From NCBI GenBank assembly GCA_021234155.1, contig JAJEKV010000003.1, forward strand, positions 14,740,386 to 14,804,385: a DNA stretch of 64,000 nucleotides, in the 5' to 3' direction. Positions 14,799-44,597 of the stretch are shown here, piece after piece. The position numbers were made by a program, and so were the translations under genes. Position 1 is the first letter of the stretch. Each line of letters begins with the position of its first letter. The DNA is from Isoetes taiwanensis. Taxonomy: Eukaryota > Streptophyta > Lycopodiopsida > Isoetales > Isoetaceae. Under the pieces are notes generated by a model. The model did no database searches, was not told where the DNA came from, and was given only the letters and a program-made list of their open reading frames with translations.

Positions 14799-15023
14799 GC
14801 AATTGTCTGTACAATAGCCTCTCCAACTTGTTTCCTCATCAAAAAAAGGAAAAAATATGCCAATGTATTATCTGCAATTGTCTGTACAATAGCCTCTCCA
14901 ACTTGTTTCCTCATCAAAAAAAGGAAAAAATGTGCCAATGTACTATCTGCAATTGTTTGTACAGTAGCCTCTCCAACTTGTTTCCTCATCAAAAAAAGGA
15001 AAAAACCTGTGAATGTATTATCT
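14799..15023. repeat. Minisatellite, three copies of a 75-bp unit
   Basis: Units start at 14799, 14874 and 14949, each beginning GCAATTGT and containing CTCTCCAACTTGTTTCC followed by an A-rich run. Since 75 is a multiple of 3, all frames stay open across copies, which creates ORFs of about 65-114 codons on both strands; these are not taken as genes. Confidence 0.9.
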
Positions 15024-17841
15024 GATTGTCCCAAAGCATTTTAACAATTGTTTTTTGAAGCAGCACACATTCTCCTGAAGATGAGCAATACTACTCACCT
15101 TTATGAAGCAGAGCAATGCTTGATATGAAGCAGATCAATGCTTGCCGGTGTAAGCAGAGACGATGCCACATTGGAGCAAAAGTATACATTATGATGCCAG
15201 ATTGCAGCAAAACTATACATTGTCTTGTCTGGTAGTATCCTTTACCTATTTTATAACATAGACAGACAAACCATCATACAAAGCGGCATCTAATCCATTC
15301 TCAACCTACACCATGTTCCACAAGCATGCTTCAAATATGTTTGCATGTAAGCAAAGGCTTCTGCTTCCTAACCTGGTTTGTTATGGACTGCCATTTGCAG
15401 AAAAGGATTTATCGCTTGAAGAGCTTGGATCCTTGGCCTTGTGCATTTGATCAGGCAGCATGGCCAATCTGTGCTACAACAGCATCTGTCTATGGATAGT
15501 TCTCTACCAAATAGACCCCAACTGATGATGCTGGCATAAGAGGGCAAGGCACGTAGGTCCTAAATCAGCAGATTTCCAGCTCGAATGATTATCCACATGT
15601 ACCATTCAGTTCAAACAAGATCATGTGGAATAGCAAAAATATGCATCAAGCCCACCTGTCATCCAGAGCTAGCCTTAAAACTTTAGACATTTGAGAATTC
15701 TTCCCCTTAAACTTTGGCAATTGTTCCCTGCATCAGTCAAATGCGCATTCAACTTGATAATTAAGTAATACTTAAGTCCAATGTGACAAAAATTTGCAAA
15801 CATTTCGTCTAACCTTAAATGGGGATCTCCAGAAACCCCTGCCAATGCCCTGGATTCAACCCTATAATTATGCAGCACGAAAACAGACACCAGGAACAAA
15901 TACCCAATTACAAAACCCACATGCCCAAATGACAAATACACATTTGGAAGCGAAGAAATCTTTGGCATAATGATTAGAAAGGTGCAAAACAGAGCGAATT
16001 CGGTTTAATGCGCAAAACAGAAAAAATTTGGTTGATCCTGGGAAAGAACGGTTGGGTATGCCAAGAACATCTCGGCAAGAAGGATTCAAGAGAAACCCAG
16101 AAAAAAAGGCATTGAAGATGAGCAAAAATATATGGCACGAAAGAGGCAGGGAGATCCAAACGTCCAGGAAAACGAATCGGTTCAGCTCTCGGGACCATGA
16201 ACCCTGATAAAACAAAAAATGAAGAGGGCGGTTGGTAATGATTCAATGTAACAACGAGGAAGCCCACCTCGAGGATTATTAGCCAAATGCAAGAATGAGT
16301 TGGGTCCTTGTATGCTGATCCAGAGAGACCACCAAATCGTCTATGCGAGATTAAACCCTGCAAGACATATCCTTTTTTCTTGGATTGACAACAACCTTAA
16401 GCTAGAAGAATTTGAACAGCGGCCATTACCTTAGGGATGGCAACGAAATCAGCTTTTGAAAACAAAAATCGCTTTCGCCGAATCGGAAAACCCTTTCAAA
16501 TTCGTTGTCAATCTGCAGACATCACGACCTGTCAAACCCGGAATTCTCCTGTTCGCAGATCGCCGGAATGCAGAGATGATTCTTCCCTAAAAATCTTCAT
16601 TTTCATTCCCAACACATAACCCTAAAATGGGTTATCTCGAGCCTTGCATGTCGAGCAGAATATTTGATACAATACGAAAATACAATATAAAAATAAATAT
16701 ATGATATATGGGTCTAAACCATTGGATATAGACATCAAAATTAGTTCAACCGTACGCGCACTCTAGATATACTAATCAGTATGCCTCATCAAATACATCC
16801 ATGAAATCATATAAAAACCTTAGGGAATAAAGTACAAAAATACAAAAGAAACCCCCTGTTATTATGCTACATATTCGATACTAAAAGTGTATCATCAACA
16901 TAAAGCGCAATGAAAGTGAAGACAACACCAACTTTTTTATAATAAAGATTTTCATCAGTAGTAGTGGGTAAGTAACCATCAGAAATAAGAAATGCATGTA
17001 TCTTCTTATATCAAGCACGTGATGCTTGTTTTAAACCATACAGAGCTTTCCTTAATTTGCAAACCAAATTCTCTTGACTGTGACCTTATAACTATCAGAT
17101 TGTGCCATATAAATATCTTCTGTAAGATCTCCATTTAGAAATGTTGTTTTAACATCCATTTGATGAATATAGAGATTATGATTAACTGCAAATGCTAACA
17201 AAGCACGCACAGTGGCAAGACACACTACAAGTGAGAATGTTTCATGATAATCAACTCCAGCAATTTGAGAAAACCCTTTTGCAACCAACCTTGCTGTAAA
17301 TCTGTCAAAAGTACCATCTGCTTTATTTTTAACTCGAAAAACCCACTTACATGTTATAGCTTTACAACCAGAAGGAAGAGGTACTAAATCCCAAGTGCCT
17401 TTACTTATCAAAGAATGATATTCAGCATCCATTGCTTGTTGCCAATGTTCACGTTCATCAGAATTTAGAGGATCATGAATAGTAACAGGCTCAGTAACAG
17501 ACACAAAAGTATAATAATCACGCAAAGTAACTGGAGGACGCCGTCTAGTAATACGAGTGTCATGAAATTCTTGTTGAGACATAACTCTAGTGCAGAATTA
17601 TCTTCAGGTTATATAGTGTAATGATCATCTAGTGAAATAATATTCTCATGTAACTGATCAGATAAATCTTCATACTCTCCTCCAACACTATCAGGTAAAT
17701 CCGAGATATCAGGTAAAGTAGAAGGTTGATGTGACCGTACTTTCTCAATATCACTCTCATTGAAAATATTTGCATCAGAATACTCACGAAAATTTGATAG
17801 AACATCATGATCATGATCATTAGATTGCGAAGGAGATTGAA

Positions 17842-18708: not shown

Positions 18709-19640
18709 AAATCTCCATCAGAATTTCTTACAGTAAGTGCATAAATTAGATCATCTGTGATCTTATACTCATATAGATTGTGATGACGCATACTAGTACC
18801 AAGAATCAAGCCATCTTTTAAAAGATAACAAAAGAGTTCATCAAAGTAAATATGAATCCCAACATCAGTTAAGCGAGAAACTGAAAGTAAATGACGATGT
18901 AAGGCAGGTACATGTAATACACCACGGAGAAAATGAATCCCTGAACGAGCTTGTAATGGCAAATCACCAATTCCAAGAACTTGTTGGCGACTATCATCAC
19001 CCATATAAACATACTTCAAAACACGAAAAGGATGATAATTTCTAAGCAAAGATTTCTCAAATACCATGTGTTGAGTAGCACCTATGCCAACAAAAGTAAA
19101 AATAAATATAAAATCCAAACTCAAATACCAAATATAGCTTCATATATTTCAACATTATAGACAATAATAAAGCACACACTTGTTTCTCCTTTAATTCCAA
19201 CAAAGATCTCGAAATAAACATACAAATACCACCATCACCACAACAAACTATTTTTTTTTTTTTTTTTTAAACCGCCACACCACCACATCACACTAACACT
19301 ACTCAATAGTTCTCACTTATTTAGAAGGAACATGATGCACACCTGAATCTATCATCATGTTATCAGTACTCCCTAGAACACTTGTATTAGGTGGAACAGA
19401 AGGTCCACTAGGCTTGTCCACATCATAACGTTCAACATCACGTGACATGCTAACATAATTAGCTTCAGCAGCCCGCTTCTCATCATCTTGTCTGTCATAA
19501 CATCTTGCAATTCTATGACCAAGCCGACCACAATAAACACATGCATAAGGTGTCCATAGCCAACCTTCAAAACACGCTGGCATGTGTTTATTGTGGTCGG
19601 CTTGGTCATAGAATTGCAAGATGTTATGACAGACAAGATG
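18627..19640 (-). pseudogene. Copia gag zinc knuckle, protease and integrase N-part, inverted copy
   Basis: The frame 19317-19619 has the CCHC knuckle CVYCGRLGHRIARC and ends in MIDSG, the protease active-site motif. The frame 18627-19124 continues with GATQHMVFEK and LWHGRFCHASF of the integrase zinc-binding domain. The stretch between them looks like the intron described for the + copy, with a poly-T tract at 19247-19268. Frames and order match 19505-20941 on +. Confidence 0.82.
19545..19579. other. 35-bp centre of the large Copia inverted repeat
   Basis: To the left the sequence is reverse-complementary to that on the right: ...CACATGC ends at 19544 and GCATGTG starts at 19580. The 35 bases between are unpaired and belong to one of the two gag copies. 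This is the second junction of the rearranged Copia; the first lies at 914/915. Confidence 0.88.
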
Positions 19641-20941
19641 ATGAGAAGCGGGCTGCTGAAGCTAATTATGTTAGCATGTCACGTGATGTTGAACGTTATG
19701 ATGTGGACAAGCCTAGTGGACCTTCTGTTCCACCTAATACAAGTGTTCTAGGGAGTACTGATAACATGATGATAGATTCAGGTGTGCATCATGTTCCTTC
19801 TAAATAAGTGAGAACTATTGAGTAGTGTTAGTGTGATGTGGTGGTGTGGCGGTTTAAAAAAAAAAAAAAAAACTAGTTTGTTGTGGTGATGGTGGTATTT
19901 GTATGTTTATTTCGAGATCTTTGTTGGAATTAAAGGAGAAACAAGTGTGTGCTTTATTATTGTCTATAATGTTGAAATATATGAAGCTATATTTGGTATT
20001 TGAGTTTGGATTTTATATTTATTTTTACTTTTGTTGGCATAGGTGCTACTCAACACATGGTATTTGAGAAATCTTTGCTTAGAAATTATCATCCTTTTCG
20101 TGTTTTGAAGTATGTTTATATGGGTGATGATAGTCGCCAACAAGTTCTTGGAATTGGTGATTTGCCATTACAAGCTCGTTCAGGGATTCATTTTCTCCGT
20201 GGTGTATTACATGTACCTGCCTTACATCGTCATTTACTTTCAGTTTCTCGCTTAACTGATGTTGGGATTCATATTTACTTTGATGAACTCTTTTGTTATC
20301 TTTTAAAAGATGGCTTGATTCTTGGTACTAGTATGCGTCATCACAATCTATATGAGTATAAGATCACAGATGATCTAATTTATGCACTCACTGTAAGAAA
20401 TTCTGATGGAGATTTGTGGCATGGACGTTTTTGTCATGCGTCTTTTCCAGTATTATTGCATATCAAAAAGCATGGTGTTGTGCATGGTTTTTTGATGGAT
20501 TCAAGAGCGGTATTAGCGCCTTGTGAAGCATGTGTACTTGGTAAATCTTGTAGGCGTCCTTTTAATCATGTTGCTCCTCGTGCATTATCTATCTTAGAGT
20601 TGGTTCATATGGATCTTTGTGGGCCTTTACCACGGTCACTTGGTGGTGCCATTTATTTTCTACTGATAATTGATGATTATTCACGTTATTGTTTCATCTA
20701 TGCACTTAAGAAGAAACTTGAAGTTTTTGCTACATTTTGCAAATGGAAAGTCATGGTGGAATTACAAAAGGAAAAGACTTTGAAAAGTATCCGTAGTGAC
20801 AATGGTGGTGAATTCAAAAATAACGAGTTTAATTCTTTTTGTGCTCATGCTGGTATTTTGCGAGAGTGTACAGTTCCTCATACACCACAACATAATGGAG
20901 TTGCTGAGCGTAAAAACAGAACTGTTTTAAATGCTGTTTGA
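19580..20941 (+). pseudogene. Copia zinc knuckle, protease and integrase, outer copy
   Basis: The first frame (to 19807) has the CX2CX4HX4C knuckle CVYCGRLGHRIARC and MIDSG, then a stop. The next frame (20000-20941) starts its homology at GATQHM and includes the integrase HHCC region (LWHGRFCHAS, CEACVLGKSC) and the DDE core: MDLCGPLP, IRSDNGGEFK and HNGVAERKNR. The protease motif DSGATQHM is rebuilt if 19782-20042 is removed as a GT-AG intron. A TGA at 20939-20941 interrupts integrase; homology continues downstream. Confidence 0.87.
19782..20042 (+). other. Candidate spliceosomal intron in the Copia protease (261 bp)
   Basis: The exon side ends GATTCAG and the intron begins GTGTGC; the 3' side ends GGCATAG, followed by GTGCTACTCAACACATGG. 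Joining the exons gives the uninterrupted protease motif DSGATQHM, whereas the unspliced frame stops at 19807. The interior is T-rich near the acceptor and has a poly-A tract (about 19855-19872). The mirror copy has the same arrangement at about 19082-19342. Confidence 0.65.
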
Positions 20942-21875
20942 AGTATGTTACTTCATTCTGGTTTGGATGTAAAGTTTTGGGCTGAAGCAGCGAGTACAGC
21001 AGTTTATGTTCAGAATTGTATATCTTCTTCTTCTGTTGATGGTTTAACACCGTTTGAGGTATGGCATGGAAAAAAGCCTATAGTTGAACATTTTAAAGTA
21101 TTTGGATCTCAGGCTTATGCTTATATTCCTAAGGAGAAATGGACTAAGTTACAGCCAGTTGCTCAAAAGGTTGTCTTTTTAGGTTATGCTGATAATGCAC
21201 CTGCCTATCGACTATTTGATTTGGTTTCTGGAAAGGTTGTTTTATGCCGCTATCGAGATACTGTTGTTAATGAAAATGTTATGATTTAATCTCCTTCGCA
21301 ATCTAATGACCATGATCATGATGTTCTATCAAATTTTCGTGAGTATTCTGATGCAAATATTTTCAGTGAGAGTGATATTGAGAAAGTACCGTCACAACCT
21401 TCTACTTTACCTGATATCTCGGATTTACCTGATAGTGTTGGAGGAGAGTATAAAGATTTATCTGATCAGTTACATGAGAATATTATTTCACTAGATGATC
21501 ATTACACTATATCACCTGAAGATAATTCTGCACAATCCTCTAGAGTTATGTCTCAACAAGAATTTCATGACACTCGTATTACTAGACGGCGTCCTCCAGT
21601 TATTTTGCGTGATTATTATACTTTTATATTTGTTACTGAGTCTGTTACTATTCATGATGCTCTAAATTCTGATGAACGTGAACATTGGCAACAAGCAATG
21701 GATGCTGAATATCATTCTTTGATAAGTAAAGGCACTTGGGATTTAGTACCTCTTCCTTCTGGTCGTAAAGCTATAAAATGTAAGTGGGTTTTTCGAGTTA
21801 AAACTAAAGCAGATGGTACTTTTGACAGATTTAAAGCAAGGTTGGTTGCAAAAAGGGTTTTCTCAAATTGCTGGA
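20942..21875 (+). pseudogene. Copia integrase C-part and RT start, outer copy
   Basis: After the TGA, 20945-21289 continues integrase (LDVKFWAEAASTAVYVQN, YIPKEKWTKLQPVAQK, VFLGY). A linker at 21290-21545 has a frameshift, then 21548-21875 begins RT (DEREHWQQAMDAEYHSL, KWVFRVKTKADGTFDRFKARLVAK). The RT is cut at 21875/21876 by element 2 just after the TGGA target and resumes at 34069. Confidence 0.87.
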
Positions 21876-21907
21876 AACCATCATTCAATTAAATTGGGAT
21901 TATGTCT
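21876..21907 (+). repeat. Left 32-bp TIR of element 2
   Basis: It is an exact reverse complement of 34033-34064 and diverges immediately after base 32. It starts AACC next to the TGGA duplication. Confidence 0.95.
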
Positions 21908-22125
21908 TAATTTTGGGATAAATTTTATATTGCACTTTTTTAGTAACTTTGTTAAATTCACTTTTTTAGTAACTTTGTTGCCCTTAGACTAGAATAGACG
22001 TTAACATATAATCACACACGGGAATATAAATTCACACCTTAACTTCAAATTACAAAATCATATATCATGAAACTCAAGTAGTACACAACTTTTATTAAAA
22101 GTGATTGATACATAGTAACTGAGAA

Positions 22126-25094
22126 TCATTTTTCCACCAACATCCCCAAGGATATGAGAACCTTATTCCTTACATCCTGAGGTATTGTAACTCTCGCTGT
22201 TTTACTAGGAATAGTTTTTGGAGTCCATGAGTACAATACGGTTTCAATGTCTAGCCAAAGATCAGGATCACTAGGATTTCTCCTCCACCTCTTTGTCCAA
22301 CAATCTGAATATCTTTCTTTATCTAAGACATTACTCAAACTGATGTCTTCGGACACCACCATTCCACGCGCACCTTATTGAAGTTAACATCACCTTCTTC
22401 TTTGCAAATATCTGAGATAGTCCATCCCAACCACACTGGATAGGTCTCTAGATCTGCTGGTTTTACTACTACAAATTGGTGGCACTCCACGTCAGTAGAA
22501 GGTTCATAACAATCCATGCCTAGATATTTTGGCCTATCCTTCTTAGGACCAACATAGTGTTTATCGATTGAGGAGGAGCATATGCCTTCACAATGCTACT
22601 AATGGTACCATCATCTTCACAAGACCAGCTAATATTTTCCACTTACTTTTAGGGAACCACCCTTCCAAAGAAATGCTTACGAGGATGTGTCTACCTCATC
22701 CAACAAGTTGATCACCTTCTTCCAATAATCTATCAATGCACGATTAGTCTCATCTCAATTAGTTTGCCAATGCTTGATGTAGTCATTGATGCCATCCTTA
22801 GTCAAGCCCAATTGCTTGACTTCTTCAGATTGGTTTTAGAGCTTTTGGTTGACCAGGGGGTATCATAGGCTTGCCATTTGCATCCCTCAAGGCCAAATTT
22901 CTGCCCCACCTCTCCACTTCTCCTCCTCCGGTCTCATTTTCCATTGCATGATTGGAATCCTTCTCTCACCCAAAAAGTGAATTGAAGAGGTCTAGAATGA
23001 CCTTCCATGTCGAGCATAACCATCCACAAAACTCTTCCAATCGGGCACTTCTTCTATGATAGATCCTATAGGAGATGGATTTGTACATCCATGAAATATT
23101 TCCAATAGCCCAGGGAAAGTTGGTAACCTGTCTGCGCCTCAATACATGACTATATTTTCCAAACAATGCATCCACATCCTCATGAGTATGTCCCATTAGG
23201 AACCCCAAATTGACTCTTTCAAAAATACCCACAAATGTTAAGTAGGATAGGAAAGAAAACATCCACCTATTCTTATTTTGACCAAAGACAATTATCTAGT
23301 TGCAAGAGGAGCTTTTGGGCAGGGATCTCGAGGTTTAGCACGAGATGTTGAAGCTCCAACATGTTCATTAGGTCCATTCCTCCTAAATCTTGCCTTGCTA
23401 AACTTTTCAATACTATTAGGGGTTCCATCCAACAATGCACTATGTAGTGCCCGGCTAGTCAGTAGGATCCTGTAGGTGACCATTGTAACCCTTCTCATAG
23501 TTTCTTAAACACCTCATGATACTCCCAATGTGAAAACTGGACCATCACTCCACAACTCTAAACCTAAAGGGCCATAATAAGTCCGAGACTGCCCATGCAA
23601 TATTGCCCCATCATTGAAATCAAGAAAGGGTATGATCTTCCACATGACTTAGGAATGTACTTGAATTGTGGAAGACAAGTCTTCGTTGGTCCATTTTATC
23701 ATGTATAATACATAGATAGTTATTAGGTTCCATTGCGTATAAGGTCCTCCACATCCAATAAGTTGATCTACATGATAGTTGATCTCATCATATGGTCCTT
23801 CATATGTTCCCTTATCTTTGCCCTTAGACTTGGTTGCAGTCTTATCTAGTGTCTCCTTCAAACTTAGCACATAAATTGCACTTGGCAAAGTTGTTTGAAG
23901 TTGCTATGGTCACATGCTTGAAATGCTTATTCCATAGCCTACTAAAACTGGCCGATATAGAGGCCACTCCAAGTTCCCCAAAGCAATGCATTTATTTCCT
24001 CTAATATGCTCTTCCGGGTACAATGGGATGGCAATCTCTTTTCAACAATAACTCTACCCTGTTCATCCTTCTTACTCTTATGTGGCATGTTTTCCGCATT
24101 GAAATCCACATATCTTTCAAATATTTCCTTTTGCAGCTATAGTTCTTGAGGTAGGCCTTACGGGCCAGTGTTCCCATGCAATGCAATTTTACTACCATTT
24201 TCATGTCTCTTTTGCCGGTTGTGCCAAGAAGAGGTTGGAATTCCATGTATAGCCATCCATGCTTTTGAACATATCCACTTTCCATTCAATGGGAATCTTT
24301 TCTTCTTTGATCTTTCATCCCAATTGCATAGCCAAATATGGTGTACATGAAATTCCTCCCGCTATCACACTTATGTTCCCGATATGTAGCTCTTGCTCCC
24401 ACCAACTCCTCTATTGTGAACATTCTAACACAAGAAGCCCAACAACATTCACCTCCTCTAACCTTCATCATAGCTTCGGAGAACAATCATAATCTGACTT
24501 GCATCTTTTGGTGGGATAATGTTTGAAAGTTGGAAGTGGCCTCTTGCTACACTGTGTGAACATTGTTGACAATGGTTCTACATCTATAGGAAACGTGTAG
24601 TTCCCCTCCAGTTGAATACTGTCCCTAGGCCATGCAACAATAGTTGGAACCTCTAGTTGCTTCACACAAGCTAGGCATTCTTGTTTGCTGAACCCTTTTC
24701 CTTCCAATTGTCATATAATTTTGAGATTGCCACACCTAACCTGTCCTCCCTAATCTTTCATCATTCACTTTGCATTGATAGGATCTGCTAGAACAATAAT
24801 CCCTTCTCCCTCTCAGCCTCTCTCATTGCATGCATGCAGGATCTTGACCTTTTTGTTTTTCCAATCGACCCGAGTATAAAGTACAATTTCCTTTCCTTTG
24901 GCATCATCCTTTTCATTTGAGGCCTTTTCCTTTCCTTTGCCATCATCAACATCATTTGGAGTCTTTTCCTTTCCTTTGCCATCATGAACATCATTTGAGG
25001 TATTTTCCTTTCCTTGGCCATCATGTTCATTAGTTGGGGATTTTTCCTTGCCTTGATCAGCATCATTAGGGGCTTTATTTTTAGCATTTTGCAT
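22126..25094 (-). pseudogene. DUF7869-like gene of element 2 (candidate transposase), broken
   Basis: Collinear minus-strand pieces from 25094 down to 22126 look like one decayed gene. The N-terminus (24813-25094) has a hydrophilic repeat of about 20 residues built on GKGKEKTPNDVDD. Next come ECCWASCVRMFTIEEL with R...RNFMYTIFGY (24286-24486) and VVKLHCMGTLARKAYL (24001-24285). Then comes a block with FLMGHTHEDVDALFGKYS (22966-23262), the hallmark of DUF7869-type proteins, and last a C-terminal VWLGWTISDICKE...VRVEWWCP (22335-22517). At least six frame changes or stops separate the pieces. I infer a transposase role from its place beside the TIR; that DUF7869 is a DDE-type core is not shown here. 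Confidence 0.6.
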
Positions 25095-25259
25095 GCCATT
25101 GACCTAGAATGCATAAAATATATAGTAAGTTAGCATATCCAAATAACCTCTCAATAACATGTTCATAAATGAAAGCCTCATATGTCTTATTCTATTTGAT
25201 CATTCTATTTATATAATGGGATTCCCCAAGTTATTTTCCTCAACATTATATATAAATAA

Positions 25260-25505
25260 AACCCTCTACTTATTAGCCTTATAACTTGTATCCTATAATA
25301 ACCTTTGTAATAAATTTTAACCTTGTAAAAGGGATAACCCTTATGAGGGTTAACCTTAAAAGGTTAACTTAACCATTAAAGGGATAACCTTGGTATCCTA
25401 TAATAACCCTTATAATAAATTTAACCTTATTATTACAAGGGATAACCTTGGTATCCTATAATAACCCTTATAATAAATTTAACATTGTTATTACAAGGGA
25501 TAAAC
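25260..25505. repeat. AT-rich tandem repeat, about 60-bp unit
   Basis: Two to three imperfect copies of a unit containing AAGGGATAACCTTGGTATCC and ATAACCCTTATAATAAATTT lie between the DUF7869-like gene and the pyrimidine-rich tract. No coding signal is present. Confidence 0.8.
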
Positions 25506-25604
25506 TTCGCGTCCTTAAAACAATTAACCCGTGCAATAAATTTTTTTCGGAAGTTATAATGGCGCGGTACAAAATTTTGAAAGCGCTTATTATTTCAAGT
25601 TAGC

Positions 25605-26230
25605 ATTCGTTTTGAACTTTTCTCTCTCACTTTTAAACTTCCAATTCCGGGCATTCCAGCGCTTCCAATTTCTATCTTCTACTTCCAATTTCTTCTCGGC
25701 TTCTATTTGCTTCAATGCGCTTCTCGGCTTCTATTATCCGCTTTCAAACTTGGCTTTTACGCTTCAATCTAAACTTCTACGCTATCCGCTTTAAACTCGG
25801 CTTCTATACTTTTTTATATCTGTTTTTATCTGGCTTTCGGCTTCTACAATCTGTTTTTATCTGTTTTTATCTGGCGGCTTTCGAGTTTTTTCTTCTTCTA
25901 CAATCTTCGCTTTAGGGTTTTTATCAAAGGTTTTTTTTTCTAAAAGGTTTCTACTCGGCTTTTACGCTTTTACGCTTTAAACTTCGGCTTCTATATGCTT
26001 TTCGGCTTCTATATGCTTTTTTCGCTCAATACAAGGTTCTATACAAGGTTTGTAGGCTCTATACAAGGTTTTACGGTTTTTGGCTTTTCTGACTTTGAAT
26101 AACTTTGGTTTTTTGTGTTAAAGCTTCTCGGCTGCTATTGCTTTTTCTCCAAATTAGCTGCTATTGCTTTTTCTCGGCTTCTTAAGGCTTCTCGAATCAC
26201 TTCTTAAGGTTTCTCGGGTTAGTATTTACT
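25605..26230. repeat. Pyrimidine-rich cryptic simple repeat
   Basis: The + strand is dominated by variants of CGGCTTCTA, GCTTTTACGC and TTTTTCTCGG over about 600 bases. ORFs here, rich in Phe, Leu and Ser, are products of composition and are not counted as genes. The tract separates the minus-strand gene from the plus-strand cargo and could hold a divergent promoter. Confidence 0.75.
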
Positions 26231-26793
26231 GTTATTTACATAAAGTAGTTATTTTCCATAAAGCATGTTATTTACTTTTACATGCATCAGTTCTATTTCA
26301 TATCATATCTGTTCTCTATCATATCATATTACTCTATCTGTTCTATTTCATATCTGATCTATGATCTTGCTCTATGATCTAGATCATAGAGCAAGATCAT
26401 AGATCTTCACTAGCTCTTCCTCTATCTGTTCTAAATAATGAACTAAAACAATGAACTAAATATTGAACTAAACAAGGAGTTATATTGAACTAAACAAGGA
26501 GTTAAACAAGGAGTAAATAAAGAACTAAACAATATCTAACTGGCTTTATATTTTGAATTACGCATTCTCGCATTCTCGCGCATTACGCATTATGTATTTT
26601 GTTAGAATAATATGTTGGAATGGGAGAAATCGCTTGGCGCATTTCTATTTTTGAGTTCGTTTTCCACTAGGTTAATCAAATCGCGCCCGGTAGCGTTTTA
26701 GTTGGCATTTCAATTTCATACGGCTCTATACAAGTCGCGCCCGGTAGCGTATGAAATAGATCTGTGCTAATTACTTTCTCTCGTTCTAGTGCC

Positions 26794-27197
26794 ATGGATT
26801 TTCCTTATGCATGGACACCGGGCGGGTTCAAATACACTGGTGGTTCTAGTTCCACCGGGCGACCATCAACTCGACCCTGTACAAGATATTACTTGAGTGT
26901 CTTTGTTCAAAACGTTCAAAGAGAGTTGGAGAATCCATTAGACGGCTGTATCGGGGGCCATGGGTACACTTCCATCGCATCTATGGACATATCGGACTCC
27001 TCATGCTCTTAGTAAGGCTCATGCCAACAAATAAGTACAAGGATTTGATTTATAGTATCGGGGATCGATACAACACTCTCTGGTTTGGAGACTTCGACAT
27101 CCTCGGGAAAGATGAGGATCTGTCATATCGAGGGTGGTTCGAGGTGGGACTTCTTGGGATTAGGCGGATGAAGTGGGCACGGCCCGACATATTGTAG
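26794..27197 (+). pseudogene. Small unrecognised cargo ORF with one frameshift
   Basis: An ATG at 26794 starts MDFPYAWTPGGFKYTGGSSS and is open to 27012. The next frame (27003-27197) continues without a clear start: NKYKDLIYSIGDRYNTLWF, then DEDLSYRGWFEVG. Together they would give about 130 residues if one frameshift near 27000 is allowed. Hairpin motifs lie on both sides (26678-26750 and 27208-27290). The function is unknown. Confidence 0.35.
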
Positions 27198-27369
27198 AGA
27201 TAGAAAGAATTCGCGCTGGCGCATTTTGAGAAGAAGAAATGTACATAACTTTTTTGAATATGAATACAAACTTCGCGCTGGCGCAATTTTGCACTATACT
27301 TTTCCGTCATTAGTTTATTTTTTTTTTTATATGCAATGTCGAAAACATTGAATCCTGTGATGCCCTCCA

Positions 27370-27441
27370 GCCAGTATGACCAACCCCAAGAAACTACATA
27401 TTTTCATTAATGTGTAGTTTCATGGGGTTGATAAGACTGGC
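27370..27441. repeat. 31-bp stem, 10-base loop inverted repeat
   Basis: The arms 27370-27400 and 27411-27441 pair with five mismatches; the outer part reads GCCAGT...ACTGGC. The shape resembles a short MITE remnant or a small precursor-like hairpin. No expression evidence is available from sequence. Confidence 0.7.
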
Positions 27442-27864
27442 TAAAGACCATCCGCGAAATTCAAAGTTCACAACATCACGCAGATGATATGATATATTCT
27501 TTTTTTTTGAATATCCAAATATACATACCTTTTTTGGGGCGTTCTTTTGGCCATGCTACAAATGTGCCCACGCTTTCACCAATTTGTATGCGCCACGGGA
27601 TGTCTTCTTGGAAGAGCCTCATCTTCATAATTGCGGTTTAGAATAGAAATCTTCTGACTGTTTCCAAGAGGAACACCATGACACATAGAACTTGGATTCA
27701 AATCTTCGATTTTACACAATCCTACTCGGCGCTTCAAGTTTGCTGTTAAAAGATAGCATTCTTCTCCGACACTGATAAAGAACCAGAATGCATTGTAAAA
27801 AATAGAGGACGAAAAATTGAGAACAAGAGAATGCATTCGAATTCACCATAGTTCAGCAGACATC

Positions 27865-28012
27865 GAATGGGAATTGAAGGCGGCTCGATCGAATGGATTG
27901 AAGGCGGCTCGATCGTCGAATGGGATCGAACGGATCTTGGGCGCTCTGATAGTCGATTGTTCTTGGGCGCTCTGATACTAGGAATGATCTTGGGCGCTCT
28001 GATAGTAGGTGG
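27865..28012. repeat. Short direct repeats within element 2
   Basis: GAAGGCGGCTCGATCG occurs twice and GATCTTGGGCGCTCTGATAG-type units three times in about 150 bases. They keep frames open on both strands but show no protein signature. Confidence 0.75.
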
Positions 28013-28203
28013 CCGATTAGGTGGTAGTAGATTGCCACATATGCGTTTCTTGAAATTAATAATTAATTGTTATCTTGAAATTGCACTAAAAAGAAAAACA
28101 CAATTTAAATTTGTAAATGAGCGGGACGGGCGGTTAATTAAGGCGGTATAAATTTAAAAGGACGCGAATTTGAATTCTGGTTGTAAATCGGCGGCCCTAG
28201 ATT

Positions 28204-28416
28204 ATGAGCGATACATATAAGTTTAAACCAAAACCCCGATCTCATACTATCCGCACTTGCGCTTCTATGGCGTCTAGAGGATCTCGGCGGCCGAGGCGCC
28301 GTTGTAGAGGTGGGCGACGACTAAAGCACAAATCCCAAGCACGGAGGTCACTGAACAAGCGTAAAGTTTTGATCCAACAAAGCCTCCTCGTAATTGATCT
28401 GTTTTTTGTTTTGTAA
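28204..28416 (+). CDS. Small basic ORF, unrecognised
   Basis: The ATG at 28204 opens 70 codons with a strongly basic middle (SRGSRRPRRRCRGGRRLKHK) and a hydrophobic end. There is no recognisable domain. It may be a chance ORF or a first exon of the cargo gene downstream. Confidence 0.2.
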   Translation: MSDTYKFKPKPRSHTIRTCASMASRGSRRPRRRCRGGRRLKHKSQARRSLNKRKVLIQQSLLVIDLFFVL

Positions 28417-28883
28417 TTGATTTACGTGTCCCTTTTATTGTTAGGTTTCTAGGATGTTTTTCAACCTGTGTATTTTTACGTATGCGTGTCTCGTGTATTG
28501 TCTACCTTTCATATTGTTTTACGTGTCATTTCTAATTGCTTTTACTACCTTGTTTTGTGTGTTTTTGTTATAATCTTCTCCTTTACTCCGATATGTTTAA
28601 AGTTGGAACAATTCTCCATTTTGTATAATGTAGACCGTGTAAGTCTTTACTACGTATTCTCAGTTCTTTTGACAAGTCTTTTTGTAGCCTAGTATGTCTC
28701 TTATAAAAGAGAAGTGTCTGTAGGTCCCCTCTTAAGAACGCGCTCGGCGCGATTTATAATTATGAGTGGTTTTGGTTGTCTCTCGCTACTTTCCCTGTGT
28801 ACAATTTATGTTTTTGAAAGTAAGGCGTCTATGAAAACGCGCTCGGCGCGATTTCATTACTCACCACATGATTGTAACTTTCA

Positions 28884-31569
28884 GGATCTTCTAAAATGTG
28901 AAAAGAAAAGCAAAGCCTGCGCAGGGTCCAGGGACATCCGCAGAAAAAACCAAGAACGGATGAAGATGTATCAGTTGCAGATTTGGCACACGTTGTGACC
29001 ATTGACGATACGACCGAAATAATGAAGGCTCAGGTAGAGCCTCCATGTCCAGAAGAAGATCTACCAGAGGGCTCTGAATGGTATGTGGAGATCTTCAAGA
29101 CTAGCGGAAAGACAGATCTGATTTTCATGTCTAGAGTTAAGGAAACAGATCAAATGAAGAAACAAGGTATTCTCGATCACATGCGAAGAAACGGGGCGAT
29201 TCTTCTTGTTCCGTATTACTTGAAGCGGGTCGAGAAAAATAAAAAGTATTGAAGAAGTTAAATTACTTTGCGTGCTAGTTCCTTTAAAGAGACTGCCCTA
29301 AGAACGGATGAGGCCGCAGATAACCTCTTCAAATTTGGCTGGTCAGGTGGTGATCTATTGACACCAAAAAAAATATGTCAAGGTCTCTCAGCTGTGAGAA
29401 GAGCAATCAGTACAAGGCCGTCAGCTAGTCTGTACCTACAAGCTTTAAAGGAGAAGGAAGATGCAAGTTCTAGAGCCGTGGAAACACCCGGGCGTTCTAG
29501 GCATTACAGATATGACTAGTGATGATGACAAGGCGAGATGGTTAGAGGCCATGAGCAAACTCAAGAAATATCTTTGACAAGTATCCACTGGGCCTTAGCT
29601 TCGCATCCTATCCATGTCGGCGGGCTTTTCGTGTCCACGAAGGCTATGTTTGTCGTGAGAAGATTTGACAAGCGTACGCGCAATGGAAATAGTCGGCGGC
29701 ATGATAGAAAACCGGGGCGGGTGCCAATGCCGGCAGATGTGGTGCCTTTTGATATGAAGACGAAGAAGGTGTTGATGTGGAATAAACTTGAAGATTTAAC
29801 TGGCAACCTCGATATTCACTTCATGATAATAGATGGCCAGCATTCAGTGGAGGCGCAGAAGGTTTTGATCAGTCAAGCACAAAAAACTGGAAATCAGTTA
29901 TTCTATAGACTGTATTCAGTCAGAAATTGCCGATTCCTCAGTGGCTCCACAACAGCAGCAGAATTAGCCGAAATCAGCGCGCTACTGAATGACATGGGAA
30001 AGACATTCCTGTACAAAAGGTATTTTATGTTCCACACATAGCGTTCCAAATCGCGCCAGGCGCGTTTTATGTTGTTATTTGTGTGACGGATTTACAAGAA
30101 ACGCGCCTGGCGCGAATTCTTCATCATGAAGAAATCGCGCCAGGCGCGTTTCTTGTAAATACGTGATTAACGAAAACGCGCCTGGCGCGTTTTATATTGT
30201 TACTTTCACGACCTGTTTATTTTTTTTATCTAACGGCCCATATTTTGCAGTCCGGTATATGGGCGATTCTTGGCACGCCAGTAACCAATGGATCGAATAT
30301 GGAAAACCAATGCCGACCAGACAAAGGGCAATCTAAGAGTGCGAATTCAAATTACTAGAAAGGACACCGTGCCAAACCATATCTGAGGACAAGAACAAGG
30401 CCACTAGATCAAAGAAGAAAAAAGGGGATGCACAAGCTGGCACAGAAGAGCAAACGGTGCCAAAAGATGCCTGCAAGATTGTTTTTTCTTCTGACCAGGT
30501 ATGGGAAAAGTGGAACGAATTTTGGGACGCCTATTCGGAAAAGAAGTTGCCAGATTCGTATGGCAGGTTTCCTCCGCAAGATACGTCTATTTTTGATATA
30601 GGTATCACAGAAATGAGAAAGGCACAAGGATTGGATGATGCAGAATTAATCTCTGTTCTAGATAGTTGCATCAGAAAGGAAGTTATCTACAAGAAAACGT
30701 CTGCAGCAAAGCACTTGACATCTTTCGAAGATGCATGCGAATCGATAAAGAATATGAAAGTCCTGAAAAAAGCTGTTGGTGAAGAACTGCAAAGGCTCTC
30801 AGGAGACATGATGTTATCAGAGATAGGCTTAATGCAAAAGTACAACGTATCTAATGATGACATTAAGAAATATGTATTTTGGTCAAAAGATTTTGTGAAG
30901 CAGCAAAAGGCGAAGAATGTGGCAACTCTTAAGGGGATTCACACGAAAGTTGCGTCTGACCTAAAAAGAAAAGTTGCTTTGGTGAAGAAGACGGCAGTAG
31001 ACGAGTCTCCTTTTTTCTACAAGGTGTCCACTGGTTATAAGTGTGCCATGCCAGAGGTAGGTGAAGGGCCAACCGACATCACTCTATTTGTTCTTGATAG
31101 CCGTGGCACGAGATGGACACAGGATGATTACAGCACCTTCTTCAACACATGCAGTGGTTTGACGACTGAGATGCATTATACTATCGTGACAGTTTGCCAC
31201 TCCGACATTTCCTACGCATATGCACTAGCTGCTGCAAATGATGTCGAATGCATTAAAGTGATGAGGCAAGCAGTGATGATAGATGAAAACAAAGATAGTG
31301 AGTTTAGTACCGAAAGTAAGATCTCACATGTGCTAGTCCTTATGATAGCCATTATGGATGATAAAGAATATGAAAGACTCAAGGGGAAACCAGAAGGTGA
31401 GAAGATTGCTTGGCAGTGCTATCGGCTAGATGAACCCCTATTGAAGAATGTTTTTTATGTCGAATCAATTGCGAAGACAAAGGGAAAGGGACCGCAGATG
31501 TGGATGTGGACACAGACCGAAGAGGAAGAGGAAGAGGAAGAAGAAAAATGGATTCGACCCCGCCCTTAA
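28884..31569 (+). pseudogene. Cargo gene with ParB/DGQH-like motif, decayed and intron-containing
   Basis: Collinear segments are 28884-29252 (...EDLPEGSEWYVEIFKTSGK), 29268-29519, 29538-30019 and 30457-31569. The third has VVPFDMKTKKVLMW, then IIDGQHSVEAQKVL, then a Cys-Arg and ISALLNDMG block, reminiscent of ParB/DGQHR-type domains. A donor AAAAG/GTATTT at 30019/30020 and an acceptor TTTTGCAG near 30250 define an intron of about 230 bp that contains four hairpin motifs. After it, a frame with QWIEYGKPMPTRQRA follows. The last segment is a 370-residue open frame with EGPTDITLFVLDSRGTRW, perhaps a nucleotide-binding or methyltransferase-like fold, and an acidic tail. Frame changes make the present copy non-functional. 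The assignment is tentative. Confidence 0.45.
30457..31569 (+). CDS. 370-aa open frame, longest cargo ORF of element 2
   Basis: The frame is uninterrupted for 370 codons. No typical start is established, since it probably continues upstream exons. It has VWEKWNEFWDAYSEKKLPDS, a helical charged region, then DITLFVLDSRG, HYTIVTVCHSDISYAYALA and a terminal run of Glu (about ten residues) before WIRPRP. Intact over 1.1 kb while its neighbours are broken, it is the best preserved coding segment in the element. The function is unrecognised. Confidence 0.45.
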   Translation: MPKDACKIVFSSDQVWEKWNEFWDAYSEKKLPDSYGRFPPQDTSIFDIGITEMRKAQGLDDAELISVLDSCIRKEVIYKKTSAAKHLTSFEDACESIKNMKVLKKAVGEELQRLSGDMMLSEIGLMQKYNVSNDDIKKYVFWSKDFVKQQKAKNVATLKGIHTKVASDLKRKVALVKKTAVDESPFFYKVSTGYKCAMPEVGEGPTDITLFVLDSRGTRWTQDDYSTFFNTCSGLTTEMHYTIVTVCHSDISYAYALAAANDVECIKVMRQAVMIDENKDSEFSTESKISHVLVLMIAIMDDKEYERLKGKPEGEKIAWQCYRLDEPLLKNVFYVESIAKTKGKGPQMWMWTQTEEEEEEEEEKWIRPRP

Positions 31570-32394
31570 TTCACCAATCAAGTATGAGCTCTTGACGGCG
31601 CATAAGGGGAGGCTGAATAAGTCACGGGTTTTCTTTGGCCCTTTCGAAGTTTTCTCGATTGAAGCCTTCGCCCGTTAGAGTCTACGTGTTGGGAGTTTCA
31701 TGTTGGAGGTTATGTGGGTGGAAGCTCTCGAAGCTAGCTAGGAAATGCCAAAGTGTGGTCTCGATGGTCAAGCCAAGGACTTCCTCGATATTTTTTCGAA
31801 AAGTGCTAGAGGTGGCACCTAGGGGTCCGCTAGGTAGTGCAAAAAATAAAGCTTCCAGCTCTAAGTCCGGCTTTTACCAGATCCGGCTGCAGAGCGGGAA
31901 GAAATGAGAAAGCATATAGAGGGCATAAAGAAGAATATCGACAAGCAACAAATTTAACTATGCGGCCGAGAGGCGTGCCTATCCTTCCAATCACATTGGA
32001 AAATCCGGCGAGAAGTGGATGTAGGTAACGCAAAGCGAAGAAGACAAAATCCTAGATGATACGGTGGATTCGAAAGCTCGAGTTAGCATAAAGAGTAATG
32101 AAGTATCAACCATAGTTCAAACACTAAGTGATGTGGTCATCACTTCGGCGAGACCGAAGGCAGTAGAGTAAAGCTCATCATTGCGGATGTTGAACAGAAC
32201 CGTAAAGGTATGTTATTCAAAGCGAAATGAAAATCGCGCCAGTAGCGATTTCAATTCTTCAAACAGCGAATTAATCGCGCCCGGTAGCGATTTCAATTAT
32301 TCCAACGAAATTGAAATCGCCAAGCCGCCGCGATTTCAATTTTCTTTCTCCTTGTCTCACAAGTGTGTGCTTTATTATTACGAGACCTAATCCG

Positions 32395-32925
32395 GTTTCC
32401 TCCAAAATTACGGTGTTCGATTTGAATGGAGTGCTCGCAAAACGTTACCTAAAGCACAATTTCCTTTATCATGGTATGAACGAAACCATTTGAGACATAT
32501 ACTGAAATGGGTATATCCGCGTCCATCCAAGGAGATGTTAGACCAAGCTTTCTTTTTATTTAGTTGTGCAATTTGGTCGTCGATGGAGAATAGAAATATC
32601 TGAGGAAGTTTTGAGAGTAGTTCCCGAGTTACATAGAGATTGGGCATCTGTTTGGGATCGAGCAAATGTAAGTCATTCAATAACCCAAAGGATCCTACAA
32701 AAAAAAAATATTTGTGAAATGCTTGAGCGACATGATGGATGACTTGGGCGCTTCGGAGAAGGAAGACATCATTATAGTTGATGATGACGCCTTGAAGTGT
32801 TGCTTCAATCGATCCACGATCACTAAATCCACCATCCTATCATCCCGAGGATTTTGACAAAGATGACTTCCTCGCCGTTTTGTCGGCATCTTGCAAGAAA
32901 TAGCTACTGAGGAAAAAGGTCGAAG
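32395..32925 (+). pseudogene. FCP1/NIF-type HAD phosphatase-like cargo gene
   Basis: The + strand gives ITVFDLNGVLAKRYLK (the DLNGVL variant of the HAD motif I), then WVYPRPSKEMLDQAFFLF, CAIWSSMENRN (motif II region), VLRVVPELHRDWASVWDRAN, then a GTAAGT donor at about 32667. A second block near 32725-32880 gives MDDLGASEKEDIIIVDDDALKC (motif III/IV region) and DFDKDDFLAVLSAS. The order matches the FCP1 homology domain of protein serine phosphatases. Two frameshifts break the first exon. It is probably captured host sequence or original element cargo. Confidence 0.6.
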
Positions 32926-33279
32926 AGATACAAACACTATACCCATAACTTAATCGGACAGGGAAATTGACAGGGACCTAGAGAAGATCGTTCTAGAAAG
33001 GGAACTTTTTGATATATATATATATGTATACAGAAATACACTTTCCAAAAAGTTTTGAATATGAAATATACTTTACACCAACCTCTTTCAATATATATTG
33101 TGTTCTTATATCAGCATTATTGGTTACGTATAATGTATTGTTCTTTTATATTACGTGTATGGTTTGCTATACTTGCAATAATTTGTATGTATATACCGTC
33201 AATAATTTAGGTGTCTATAAATACGTATGCATGAAATTGGCAAACCATCGGCTTCGGCTTCCGCCTTCTGCTTGTTATT

Positions 33280-33510
33280 ATGGCACATTCTATTACCTGC
33301 CAGATGAACCACGCAGACCTCTGCAGGTGCCGCGAGCTAGAAATAGAACTTCAGGACTGGCTTGATGTCGTTGCTATGAATCCCGTCCGCTTCTATCCTG
33401 ATCCCTTTGATGTTGTAATCCATCTTATATGGAATCCAGAGCATGGTTTGTTCATGATCGACAGGATCTCAGGACCGCCTGCAGCGCCTGAGGACGATGA
33501 ATCTGATTAG
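33280..33510 (+). CDS. Small acidic ORF, unrecognised
   Basis: The frame is open for 76 codons from an ATG at 33280: MAHSITCQMNHADLCRCREL, then WLDVVAMNPVRFYPDPFDVV, then an acidic end. The Cys/His-containing start is suggestive but fits no zinc-finger spacing I recognise. A hairpin motif follows 45 bases after the stop. Confidence 0.3.
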   Translation: MAHSITCQMNHADLCRCRELEIELQDWLDVVAMNPVRFYPDPFDVVIHLIWNPEHGLFMIDRISGPPAAPEDDESD

Positions 33511-33822
33511 TTTTTGTAGTTTATGTTCTATTGTAATGCGTTATTTATGCCAAGCAAATCGCGCCACGCGCGATTTGAACCACGAAAATCTCTGTTTTGT
33601 AGCAACTTGCTTGTTGTTATTTACTCGTAAAGCTTTACAATTTCATTGTTTAGATTTCGTTTCGATTAGTTTTTAAAGTTTATGTTCCACTATAATACGT
33701 TATTTATGGGAATAAAATCGCGCCACGCGCGATTTGACCCTTCAAAATCTCTGTTCTGTAGCAACTTGCTTGCTGTTATTTATTCGTAAAACACTACAAT
33801 TTCAATGTTTAGATTTCGTTGT
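33507..33822. repeat. Two tandem copies of a 159-bp unit carrying the hairpin
   Basis: The units start GATTAGTTTTTG and GATTAGTTTTTA (33507 and about 33665) and each holds one perfect AAATCGCGCCACGCGCGATT hairpin 159 bp apart. The hairpin core is identical in both while flanking bases have diverged. Confidence 0.85.
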
Positions 33823-34032
33823 CGTCGGTGATTGTACGAATTAATAAGCAATTTCCTACTTTTTATATTGCCAACATTCTTTCATAATATGGGTCATTTG
33901 GACCGAATATTTGGATGACCTTGCATTTCAACATAAAATGCATCTTCCTAGCCCGAAAATGAACTCAGTGCAAAAGTGTGGTTAATTCAATATAATGGTC
34001 AATAAATAGCTTATACGGCGCGATTTTGGAAT

Positions 34033-34064
34033 AGACATAATCCCAATTTAATTGAATGATGGTT
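34033..34064 (-). repeat. Right 32-bp TIR of element 2
   Basis: It is an exact inverted match of 21876-21907, ending GGTT before the second TGGA copy at 34065-34068. Confidence 0.95.
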
Positions 34065-35340
34065 TGGAGTTGATTATCATGAAACATTCTTGCCTGTAGT
34101 GCGTCTTGCCACTGTGCATGCTTTGTTACGCATTTGCAGTTAATCATAATCTCTATATTCATCAAATGGATGTTAAAACAACATTTCTAAATGGAGATCT
34201 TACAAAAGATATTTATATGGCACAACCTGATAGTTATAAGGTTACAGGTCAAGAGAATTTGGTTTGCAAATTAAGGAAAGCTCTGTATGGTTTAAGGAAA
34301 GCTTGGTATAAGAAGATGCATGCATTTCTTATTTTTGATGGTTACTTACCCACTACTGCTGATGCAAATCTTTATTATAAAAAAGTTGGTGTTGTCTTCA
34401 CTTTCATTGCGCTTTATGTTGATGATACCATTTTAGTATCGAATGATCTTCCATTTCTTAATAAGTGCAAGGCCAACCTTGGAGCTGCGTTTGATACGGT
34501 TGATCTTAGTTCTATCAAATCTTGTCTTGGACTTCAAATAGAACGTCAAGAAGGTTGCATAAGATTGAGTCAACCAAAATATATTTCTGAGTTACTTGAT
34601 AAATATGATATGACTAATGCTAAACCTCAGTTAACACCATTGGGGCCTAATGTTAAGTTGACTAAGCAGATGTGTCCTCAAACAGAAGCCGAGCGTCTTG
34701 ATATGGCTAACTATCCATATACAAGTCTTGTTGGTGCTCTAATGTACTTAGCACATGCTACGAGACCAGATATAAGTTATGTTGTTAACACGTTGGGACA
34801 ATTTATGTCTAATCCAGGGCGTCAGCATTGGAATGCAGCTAAACGAGTTCTTCGCTATCTTAAAGGCACTATAAATTATGCTTTGACATATGCTCGTCAA
34901 GATAAAGGTTCTGATGGTTCACAGTTGGTTGGTTATACTGATGCTTATTGGGGAGGTTGCCCTGACATTTTTCGTTCCACAAGTGGTGCATGTTTCTTTA
35001 TACATCATTCTTTGATATCTTGGTACAGTAAGAAACAACATTGTGTTGCGGTGTCTACTATTGGAGCAGAATATGTTGCAGCTAGTATGGCAAGTAGAGA
35101 GTTGATATGGTTACGACGTCTACTTCAATCTTTTCAACAGGTTTTGATTAGCCCAACAGTTTTATATTGTGATAATCAAAGTGCTATTTCGTTGACTAAG
35201 GATGAGGTTTTCCATTCAAAATCTAAGCACACTATATTAAATTGGAAGTCAAGAAGAAGACAATTGTGTTACAGTATTGTCCTACAGATAATATGATAGC
35301 AGATATATTTACTAAAGCATTATCTACGGCCAAGCATTAA
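34065..35340 (+). pseudogene. Copia RT-RNase H, outer copy (right part)
   Basis: After the TGGA duplication the RT continues with VDYHETFLPV-like sequence, then MDVKTTFLNGDL, GLRKAWYKKMHAF, the catalytic YVDDTILVSND near 34410, and GLQIERQEG. RNase H follows with GYTDAYWGG, AEYVAASMASRELIWLRRLL and CDNQSAISLTKDE. The frame 34106-35296 is open for 396 codons, then shifts near 35235. The first residues before 34106 are out of frame. This is the best preserved polymerase segment in the nested Copia. Confidence 0.9.
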
Positions 35341-44300: not shown

Positions 44301-44597
44301 AAAAGTTTTTTTTGATTTTTTCATTTTTCAACAACCCCATAAACAACCACAACAAGAAGCAAAAATCATGGTGGACTGAAGTCGCCTACGAGACAAAACT
44401 CGTTATTAAAGGTTAGTTCACGTTGTCGATCTAACTAACTAGCAAGGTACGTATTCTTTAGTGTCTCGTCCAAAGAAGCTTCTCTTTGGCGACAAAAGCA
44501 GGGGAGGTGCTACAGTTCTCTGTTTAACCAGGAATTGTTGGGCAGAATAGATCGGATACATTGTGTAGATTTACTTGGAATCAGACTGCGTGTAAGA

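Follow-up and report, generated by a model that had tools for sequence, protein, structure and literature searches.

Positions 21876-34064 of the DNA stretch analysed here (the window; 64,000 nt of Isoetes taiwanensis contig JAJEKV010000003.1, 14,740,386-14,804,385, assembly GCA_021234155.1) are occupied by a single large TIR transposon with certain ends. Taking all lines of evidence together, we think it likely that this is a high-copy, multi-gene cut-and-paste DNA element with accessory genes of its own, a palindrome that serves for self-marking and recombined gene cassettes, and that the apparent decay of its genes is largely miscalling at CHG sites. The element measures ~12.2 kb in the window and ~12.3 kb across copies (Table 1).

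Table 1. Features of the element and its target site, in window coordinates
Feature	Position	Strand	Remarks
Unoccupied target	17256..17259	-	In inverted Copia copy (arm) of the same window
Left TSD, TGGA	21872..21875	.	Supported by the empty site
Left 32-bp TIR, AACCATCATTCAATTAAATTGGGATTATGTCT	21876..21907	+	Without any CHG trinucleotide
DUF7869 transposase-like gene	22129..25100	-	Interrupted in window copy; domain match 22969-23295
Spacer between divergent gene sets	25170..26400	.	Noncoding, fast-evolving
Palindrome cluster 1	26680..26760	.	5' of gene 2
Gene 2	26794..27197	+	No known domain in this small ORF; G1-G2 identity of the region 85-93%
Palindrome cluster 2	27210..27298	.	3' of gene 2; by eye in window, by scan in other copies
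Exchanged cassette, type A in window copy	28470..32850	.	Left breakpoint sharp, near 28,460; right ~32.8-32.9 kb, inside HAD gene
Palindrome cluster 3	28735..28860	.	5' of gene 3
Gene 3	28884..31569	+	Exon 1 ~28884-30019 with IIDGQHS motif; exon 2 30251-31569 (open frame 30337-31566)
Probable gene 3 intron	30020-30250
Palindrome cluster 4	30048..30200	.	Four sites, inside probable gene 3 intron
Palindrome cluster 5	32230..32342	.	Gene 3/HAD spacer
NIF/FCP1-like HAD phosphatase gene	32400..33010	+	VFDLNGVL motif; interrupted in window copy; tblastn match in window
Gene 5	33280..33510	+	~75-aa ORF of unknown kind
157-bp tandem duplication with palindrome cluster 6	33505..33820	.	Duplicates 87% identical
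Right 32-bp TIR	34033..34064	-
Right TSD, TGGA	34065..34068	.

Ends, abundance and gene content

The preliminary description had drawn the boundaries from perfect TIRs, the TGGA duplication and an empty site, and these hold: the TIRs are complementary at 32 of 32 positions, and one extra flanking base pairs too. The window site taken alone is ambiguous, as its TSD can be read either as TGGA (4 bp) or, with a TIR of 33 bp, as GG (2 bp); the 2-bp reading was dropped on the evidence of the other copies, which establish 4 bp. An exact 4-bp TSD was present in 18 of 20 examined copies, the window included, and the other two had no matching TSD; A or T makes up 51 of the 72 letters in the 18 TSDs, and the element termini read AACCATC. 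A search of the 1.66-Gb host genome allowing at most 3 mismatches returned 3,427 TIR matches (1718 forward, 1709 reverse), against none for the reversed TIR in the same genome at the same threshold, which corresponds to roughly 1,700 elements provided that all matches pair up. The 24-base TIR core was not found in viral contigs. The host genome also holds a backbone that shares this TIR while its transposase is about 81% identical.

Contents were compared in 20 copies, a biased sample of the first listed TIR pairs with 0 mismatches on small contigs. Coverage of the window element was 77-100% in each, and segments of the DUF7869 transposase, of gene 3 with its DGQH motif and of the HAD gene were detected by tblastn in all 20, while the right part was collinear in the 18 copies that were aligned. 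Copies holding only a transposase, which the preliminary description had considered, were thus not encountered in the sample, nor was any sign that the 26.6-33.8 kb part is a separate insertion. We infer that the genes on the right belong to the element as accessory genes and have been kept by selection.

The DUF7869-like gene was confirmed by Pfam (PF25273, E 3.6e-16), and this was the sole family above cut-off; no Mutator domain was detected in Pfam scans of the pieces of the left gene and its homologs. Three conserved acidic blocks occur in homologs P0002 and P0003 and in the copies, and the D-D-E-like motifs IIHDKMDQ, LQLDNC and GHTHEDVD, read from copies and homologs, suggest a DDE-type transposase that would cut at the TIRs. 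An AlphaFold2 model of P0003 (4 sequences) had a mean pLDDT of 39.5, too low for use.

The 370-aa ORF noted previously was confirmed, with 410 codons between stops, and probably represents one exon of a larger gene, gene 3, whose two predicted exons are out of phase at their junction in the window copy and whose frame extends further in C48, C139 and C112b, by ~200 codons in C48. Its earlier label, ParB/DGQH-like, is borne out as regards the motif (IIDGQHSVEA in the window sequence), but the ParB/DndB relation is sub-threshold (copy C290 against PF14072, E 0.0059, 16.2 bits, cut-off 29.1). Gene 3 had no significant family match; querying a protein database, apparently poor in plants, with the 410-codon ORF and the joined gene 3 pieces returned nothing, the DGQH exon drew three chance-level rows from PDB sequences (E 0.51-1.8), and NCBIfam yielded no DGQHR match and HAD matches only, far below their cut-offs. 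The HAD phosphatase could be verified through the longer frame of copy C139 (PF03031 NIF, E 1.4e-17), with no such Pfam match from the fragments of the window copy itself and none among PDB sequences at E 0.01.

Cassette types and the 21-bp palindrome

When seven copies (G1) were compared with nine others (G2), the transposase arm was 90-97% identical in 22 of 22 comparison windows, and the cassette 50-76% identical in 29 of 29. Trees of the transposase arm mix the cassette types, and in the cassette tree G2 is set apart by 0.39 substitutions per site with support 1.0; at the right end the cassette types are also weakly separated. Transposase arms of the two types differ by a dS of 0.11-0.12, and gene 3 of types A and B by a saturated dS of 1.9-3.2 with dN 0.14-0.15 and omega 0.04-0.08 (single open segments; five pairs sharing sequences). 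The pooled omega of gene 3 is 0.07-0.09 in a tblastn-based table that is approximate and subject to a local 50% identity filter. Judged by the saturated synonymous sites of gene 3 and an omega of 0.04-0.09, the cassette is a pair of ancient alleles. Because these ancient alleles sit on closely similar transposase arms, the elements are mosaics, and recombination between elements would have combined a single recent transposase arm with two old forms of the gene 3-HAD cassette.

The hairpin family recognised previously in the right part of the element is likewise real, and within the window it is confined to 26.6-34.0 kb. It consists of a CG- and CHG-rich 21-bp palindrome, AAATCGCGCCWGGCGCGATTT, at six noncoding places that are the same in both cassette types; in 18 copies, 145 of 146 sites fall within six noncoding bins, themselves drawn from the observed clusters. 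Genome-wide there are 5,152 sites, as against 2 for the reversed control. Occupancy is incomplete, the site 5' of gene 3 being present in four of nine A-type copies and three of the nine B-type, and the palindrome has stayed unchanged while gene 3 diverged to saturation.

We propose the palindrome as a candidate site at which a protein, encoded by the element or by the host, would bind and mark the DNA as belonging to the element. The purpose would most likely be to counter silencing, in the manner of VANC proteins on VANDAL elements, and gene 3 is the best candidate for the binding protein. By this analogy, gene 3 and the palindrome may act together in self-recognition against silencing. The more complete proposition, that a ParB/DGQH-like protein or other element product recognises the palindrome and allows the element to be expressed or counted, with ancient cassette alleles reassorting among transposase arms, is advanced tentatively. 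That the palindromes instead work as RNA hairpins, for instance in processing or small-RNA production, would agree with their self-complementarity and with sites in a probable intron and close to gene ends; however, with its two-fold symmetry centred on a single W the palindrome would have a loop of 1-3 nt, and one site sequence recurs, and we regard such a role as unlikely.

Apparent gene decay and CHG sites

Frameshifts in the transposase are 10.5-fold denser near CHG trinucleotides, with a lower excess in gene 3 exon 2 (5.1- and 3.1-fold only), and in 18 copies together the transposase has 269 frameshift events outside CHG. Length changes at CWG reach 23% in the transposase (18 copies) vs 0.9% in Copia of the same genome (7 copies), an unmatched control in that the six retrieved Copia copies come from contigs of 7.6-53 Mb and the 19 retrieved copies of the element from contigs of 0.15-1.6 Mb. 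The frameshift pattern suggests nanopore miscalling of methylated CHG, and base-calling error of this kind probably explains much of what looks like gene decay.

This bears on the earlier suggestion that perfect TIRs beside decayed genes indicate mobilisation in trans. Frameshifts shared between copies were initially taken as possible proof of it, an argument dropped once the CHG pattern emerged. We now find trans mobilisation unsupported, because the decay itself is doubtful: the frameshifts are CHG-linked, the TIR is free of CHG, and both genes have uninterrupted stretches elsewhere. Gene 3 exon 2 is stop-free in 28 rows spanning at least 380 residues, and the P0001-like transposase half in 10 full-length rows, 7 of them of the main lineage (hand counts). 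A long-dead, non-autonomous family with truly decayed genes and TIRs kept by selection for mobility would account for the lack of any open frame above 478 codons in the sampled copies, and for the perfect TIRs in all of them, but TIR perfection was the criterion by which they were sampled. It also sits poorly with terminal branches of 0.5-2.6% in 17 of 18 copies (C284, 3.9%) in the CHG-masked transposase tree, and with the distribution of short indels, whose fit to the tree near CHG (0.11) is little better than chance; we therefore consider it improbable. Some decay may nevertheless be real, since for indels away from CHG the fit is hardly better (0.17); the tree was built from CHG-masked columns, which makes the value of 0.44 obtained for substitutions outside CHG partly circular.

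Real, RIP-like mutagenesis attacking the methylated CHG sites of this family could also produce the difference from Copia at CWG, and the window's own Copia arms do show little CHG-linked scrambling. Yet deamination-type changes amount to only 6% at CWG, 34-57% of the variants there carry a new CG, compared with 4-14% in control contexts, the variants recur in copies that are not closely related, and the Copia control comes from much larger contigs. Modification-linked nanopore errors, moreover, are already on record in the excerpted text of a Listeria study, at GCAGC/GCTGG motifs (PMC10687267). Such mutagenesis is, in our view, very unlikely, and miscalling at methylated CHG is the reading that we retain.

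Relation to known transposon systems

Like CACTA/EnSpm, plant elements of two genes that combine an accessory DNA-binding gene with repeated binding motifs, a 3-bp TSD and CACTA ends, the window element is a large plant element with an accessory gene and repeated motifs, but its TSD is 4 bp and its termini are AACCATC. Starships, the fungal giant cargo transposons, are also large and multi-gene; their captain is a DUF3435 tyrosine recombinase, which was not among the Pfam matches of the subset of ORF pieces scanned, and the window element differs from them in its TIRs and TSDs. Cargo mobilisation in the Starship sense, with a right half of captured host cargo differing among copies, might be suspected from two divergent cassette types and from a HAD phosphatase and a DGQH protein unrelated by name to transposition, but it is highly improbable because the right-hand genes are common to every copy examined, the two cassettes are homologous alleles and not different cargo, and protein searches (in the same plant-poor database) gave no outside relative of gene 3.

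VANDAL elements differ from the window element, which has a 4-bp TSD, not the 9 bp of Mutator, and DUF7869 in place of a Mutator transposase; its palindrome is long and CG/CHG-rich, and this motif is constant although gene 3 diverged, unlike VANC targets, which change along with their proteins. The likeness is one of working only, between multi-gene plant transposons with a motif clustered in noncoding parts: the excerpts of the VANDAL study describe a short motif repeated there, including the accessory-gene intron and upstream regions, with local tandem duplication of motifs (PMC5735166).

The 4-bp TSD and the TIRs are shared with the Sola superfamily, including Sola2; Sola transposases are of DDD type, and the three acidic blocks may be a counterpart here. 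According to the excerpted Sola literature, such elements can exceed 15 kb and Sola2 elements combine near-identical transposase ends with different other halves carrying Fanzor1 (PMC3627910; PMC10741241), and Sola is seemingly uncommon in flowering plants (PMC10741241); the gene set and palindrome of the window element find no mention in those excerpts (PMC3627910; PMC10741241). The term DUF7869 occurs in none of the 5.39 million papers of a literature collection, and an undescribed transposon family is plausible.

The element offers an abundant and well-delimited plant transposon with an accessory gene under long purifying selection and a defined candidate recognition site, making element-encoded counter-silencing testable outside Mutator-like elements. 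Ancient cassettes that would reassort on one recent transposase arm recall modular phage evolution. Finally, our observations serve as a warning that part of the 'decay' of transposons in some plant assemblies may reflect base-calling artefacts at methylated CHG sites.

Ends, copies and shared content

The proposed ends of the element were borne out: its 32-bp TIRs are perfect, TGGA flanks it on each side, and the inverted Copia arm retains TGGA unfilled. Taken alone, the window site is equally compatible with 33-bp TIRs and a GG duplication of 2 bp. Searching the host genome assembly (G000; 1.658 Gb, 1110 contigs) at up to three mismatches located the TIR 1718 times in forward and 1709 times in reverse orientation; the reversed pattern gave 0. 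The CHG-context effects, together with Copia elements and a gene resembling glyoxal oxidase (Pfam), suggest that the host is a plant. Copies were sampled from 100 listed TIR places, all with 0 mismatches and lying on contigs C2 to C297, among which at least 23 convergent pairs were counted by hand; this sample is skewed to perfect TIRs and small contigs, and copy numbers are estimates. Nineteen of the 23 pairs were fetched, the remaining four (23–28 kb) being excluded, and 17 of the 19 measure 12.0–14.0 kb, against 18.2 kb and 20.2 kb for the other two. In the set of 20 copies that includes the window, an exact 4-bp target-site duplication flanks 18 (exceptions, C24 and C284) and has no fixed motif, and the cargo proposed in the preliminary description proved to be shared: coverage of the window element content was 77–100% in all 20, and tblastn, run copy by copy for transposase, gene 3 and HAD, found segments of these three in every copy.

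All eight TIR loci cut by the genome search run on into family sequence, L004 and L005 being the two ends of copy C5. Loci L001–L003, on contig C2, carry the same perfect 32-bp TIR with a transposase arm just ~81% identical, and constitute a second backbone with common ends. At L045 (C279:283617–284600), two TIR matches lie on the same strand 537 bp apart, possibly reflecting nested or deleted derivatives.

An alignment of 18 copies, from which C48 and C112b were excluded for extra length, yields the groups G1 (seven, including the window), G3 (two) and G2 (nine); cassette type A denotes G1/G3 and type B G2.

Features of the window and their positions
Feature	Position	Description
TIR transposon	21876–34064	
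Cassette	~28.47–32.85 kb	Gene 3; right breakpoint within HAD
Tandem repeat, 39 bp	24887–25081	Transposase N-terminal region; encodes charged GKEK/DDG-rich stretch
Inverted Copia pair	16873–21860 with 34065–34554	Two copies, near-perfect; 912-nt arms 99% complementary, 35 nt apart; transposon in just one arm
Tandem repeats, 75 bp	14799–15023	Three, flanked by Copia-arm stretches
Open frame	44535–46244	569 codons; glyoxal oxidase match (Pfam PF07250, PF09118)

Genes and palindromes of the two arms

The left arm carries, on the minus strand, a Pfam match to DUF7869, a term that a literature text search did not find; novelty was judged on limited literature searches. A pieced transposase query retrieved P0001 (79% identity, query coverage 39%), P0002 (34% identity, coverage 99%) and P0003 (34% identity, coverage 73%) as outside homologs. 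P0002 and P0003 have in common the blocks IIHDKMDQ, LQ-DN and GHTHED-DALF, which look like a D-D-E/D trio; P0001 begins downstream of the first, and a fold model of a DUF7869 homolog (mean pLDDT 39.5) is too low in confidence to support this motif reading. In G000, P0001 gave at least 96 matches from the best 92 of 14,033 candidates scored, including twelve at 61–66% identity that represent a second DUF7869 transposase lineage in the host, and the PF25273 profile gave at least 150 among the best scored of 9,902 candidates, all those listed lying above the cut-off.

On the plus strand, the right arm holds gene 2, gene 3, an NIF-type HAD phosphatase gene and a 75-aa ORF (gene 5). The phosphatase assignment was confirmed in copy C139 (PF03031, 1.4e-17). 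Gene 3, whose FMIIDGQHS motif is present in both cassette types, is probably interrupted by an intron, the flanking frames being out of phase with each other in the window copy. Its exon 2 gave at least 104 matches in G000, from the best 102 of 5,393 first-look candidates scored; by hand count, 28 of these span at least 380 residues without a stop, six (including the window) at 84–100% identity, 22 at 70–76% and none between. Shorter or stop-containing matches do occupy the gap, e.g. a shorter one without stops at 78%, and the split fits two allele classes genome-wide.

The hairpin family noticed earlier resolves into decayed forms of one 21-bp palindrome, with 146 sites in 18 copies at up to six mismatches, all but one in six noncoding places that were defined after the clusters had been seen. 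At the same threshold there is none in the window's other 51.8 kb; G000 counts at up to three mismatches were 5,152 versus 2 for the reversed control. Windows of the probable gene 3 intron are 53–62% identical between G1 and G2. Because its layout and local duplication resemble those of the VANC target motifs of VANDAL elements, as described in the available text of PMC5735166, the palindrome may have an anti-silencing or self-recognition role.

Copies carrying the palindrome, by place
Place	Type A	Type B
5′ of gene 2	6/9	6/9
3′ of gene 2	4/9	6/9
5′ of gene 3	4/9	3/9
Probable gene 3 intron	9/9	8/9
Between gene 3 and HAD	8/9	6/9
3′ of gene 5	5/9	5/9

Lesions near CHG trinucleotides

Between the transposases of the window and copy C112a, 26% of columns differ near CHG, versus 1.7% elsewhere. 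In the transposase of 18 copies, frameshift events number 526 near CHG (16% of columns) and 269 elsewhere, a 10.5-fold excess; for gene 3 exon 2 it is 5.1-fold in nine A copies and 3.1-fold in nine B copies. Changes at transposase CWG sites comprise length (23%), multiple (13%), CG-creating W-to-S (8%), other single (6.5%) and deamination-type (6%) changes, while in seven Copia copies deamination-type changes lead (7.8%) and length changes reach 0.9%. Short indels fit the tree at 0.11 near CHG, hardly above shuffled labels, and at 0.17 elsewhere, little better; substitutions away from CHG fit at 0.44, a partly circular value.

This is the pattern that nanopore miscalling of methylated CHG sites would give, and the available text of PMC10687267 reports modification-driven errors at CAG/CTG-bearing motifs in Listeria. 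A simple miscalling artefact has against it that the six fetched Copia copies show the CHG excess in substitutions as well, yet few indels; these lie on large contigs and the fetched element copies on small ones, which confounds family with contig quality. Within the window, where element and Copia arms share one contig, the Copia arms give 5.0% versus 2.9%, with one short indel near CHG. Perfect TIRs beside decayed genes had been taken as a sign of mobilisation in trans; that reading is not supported, as the TIR has no CHG and the pattern would arise without trans mobilisation.

Divergent cassettes on a common backbone

G1 and G2 are 90–97% identical in 22 of 22 windows of 150 bp along the transposase arm, 50–76% identical in 29 of 29 windows at 28,476–32,825, and 76–89% identical from 32,976 onward. 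The left cassette breakpoint is sharp, identity being 88% at 28,430 and 55% at 28,460. G3 (C223 and C258) has cassette A, yet 43–90% identity to G1 at 25.2–28.45 kb. In trees built from CHG-masked columns, A and B copies interleave for the transposase arm, while G2 is set apart for the cassette (support 1.0; 0.39 substitutions per site) and for the right end (support 0.86; 0.011).

In five A–B pairs, four involving the window, gene 3 has a saturated dS of 1.9–3.2, dN of 0.14–0.15 and omega of 0.04–0.08; between types, dS is 0.11–0.12 for the transposase and 0.8 for the HAD gene, within which the breakpoint falls. The saturated dS and low omega of gene 3, with the low dS of the transposase, therefore argue for long selection on gene 3 in two lineages. 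As to the order of events, we infer that both lineages had long been under selection before recombination put them on one recent backbone.
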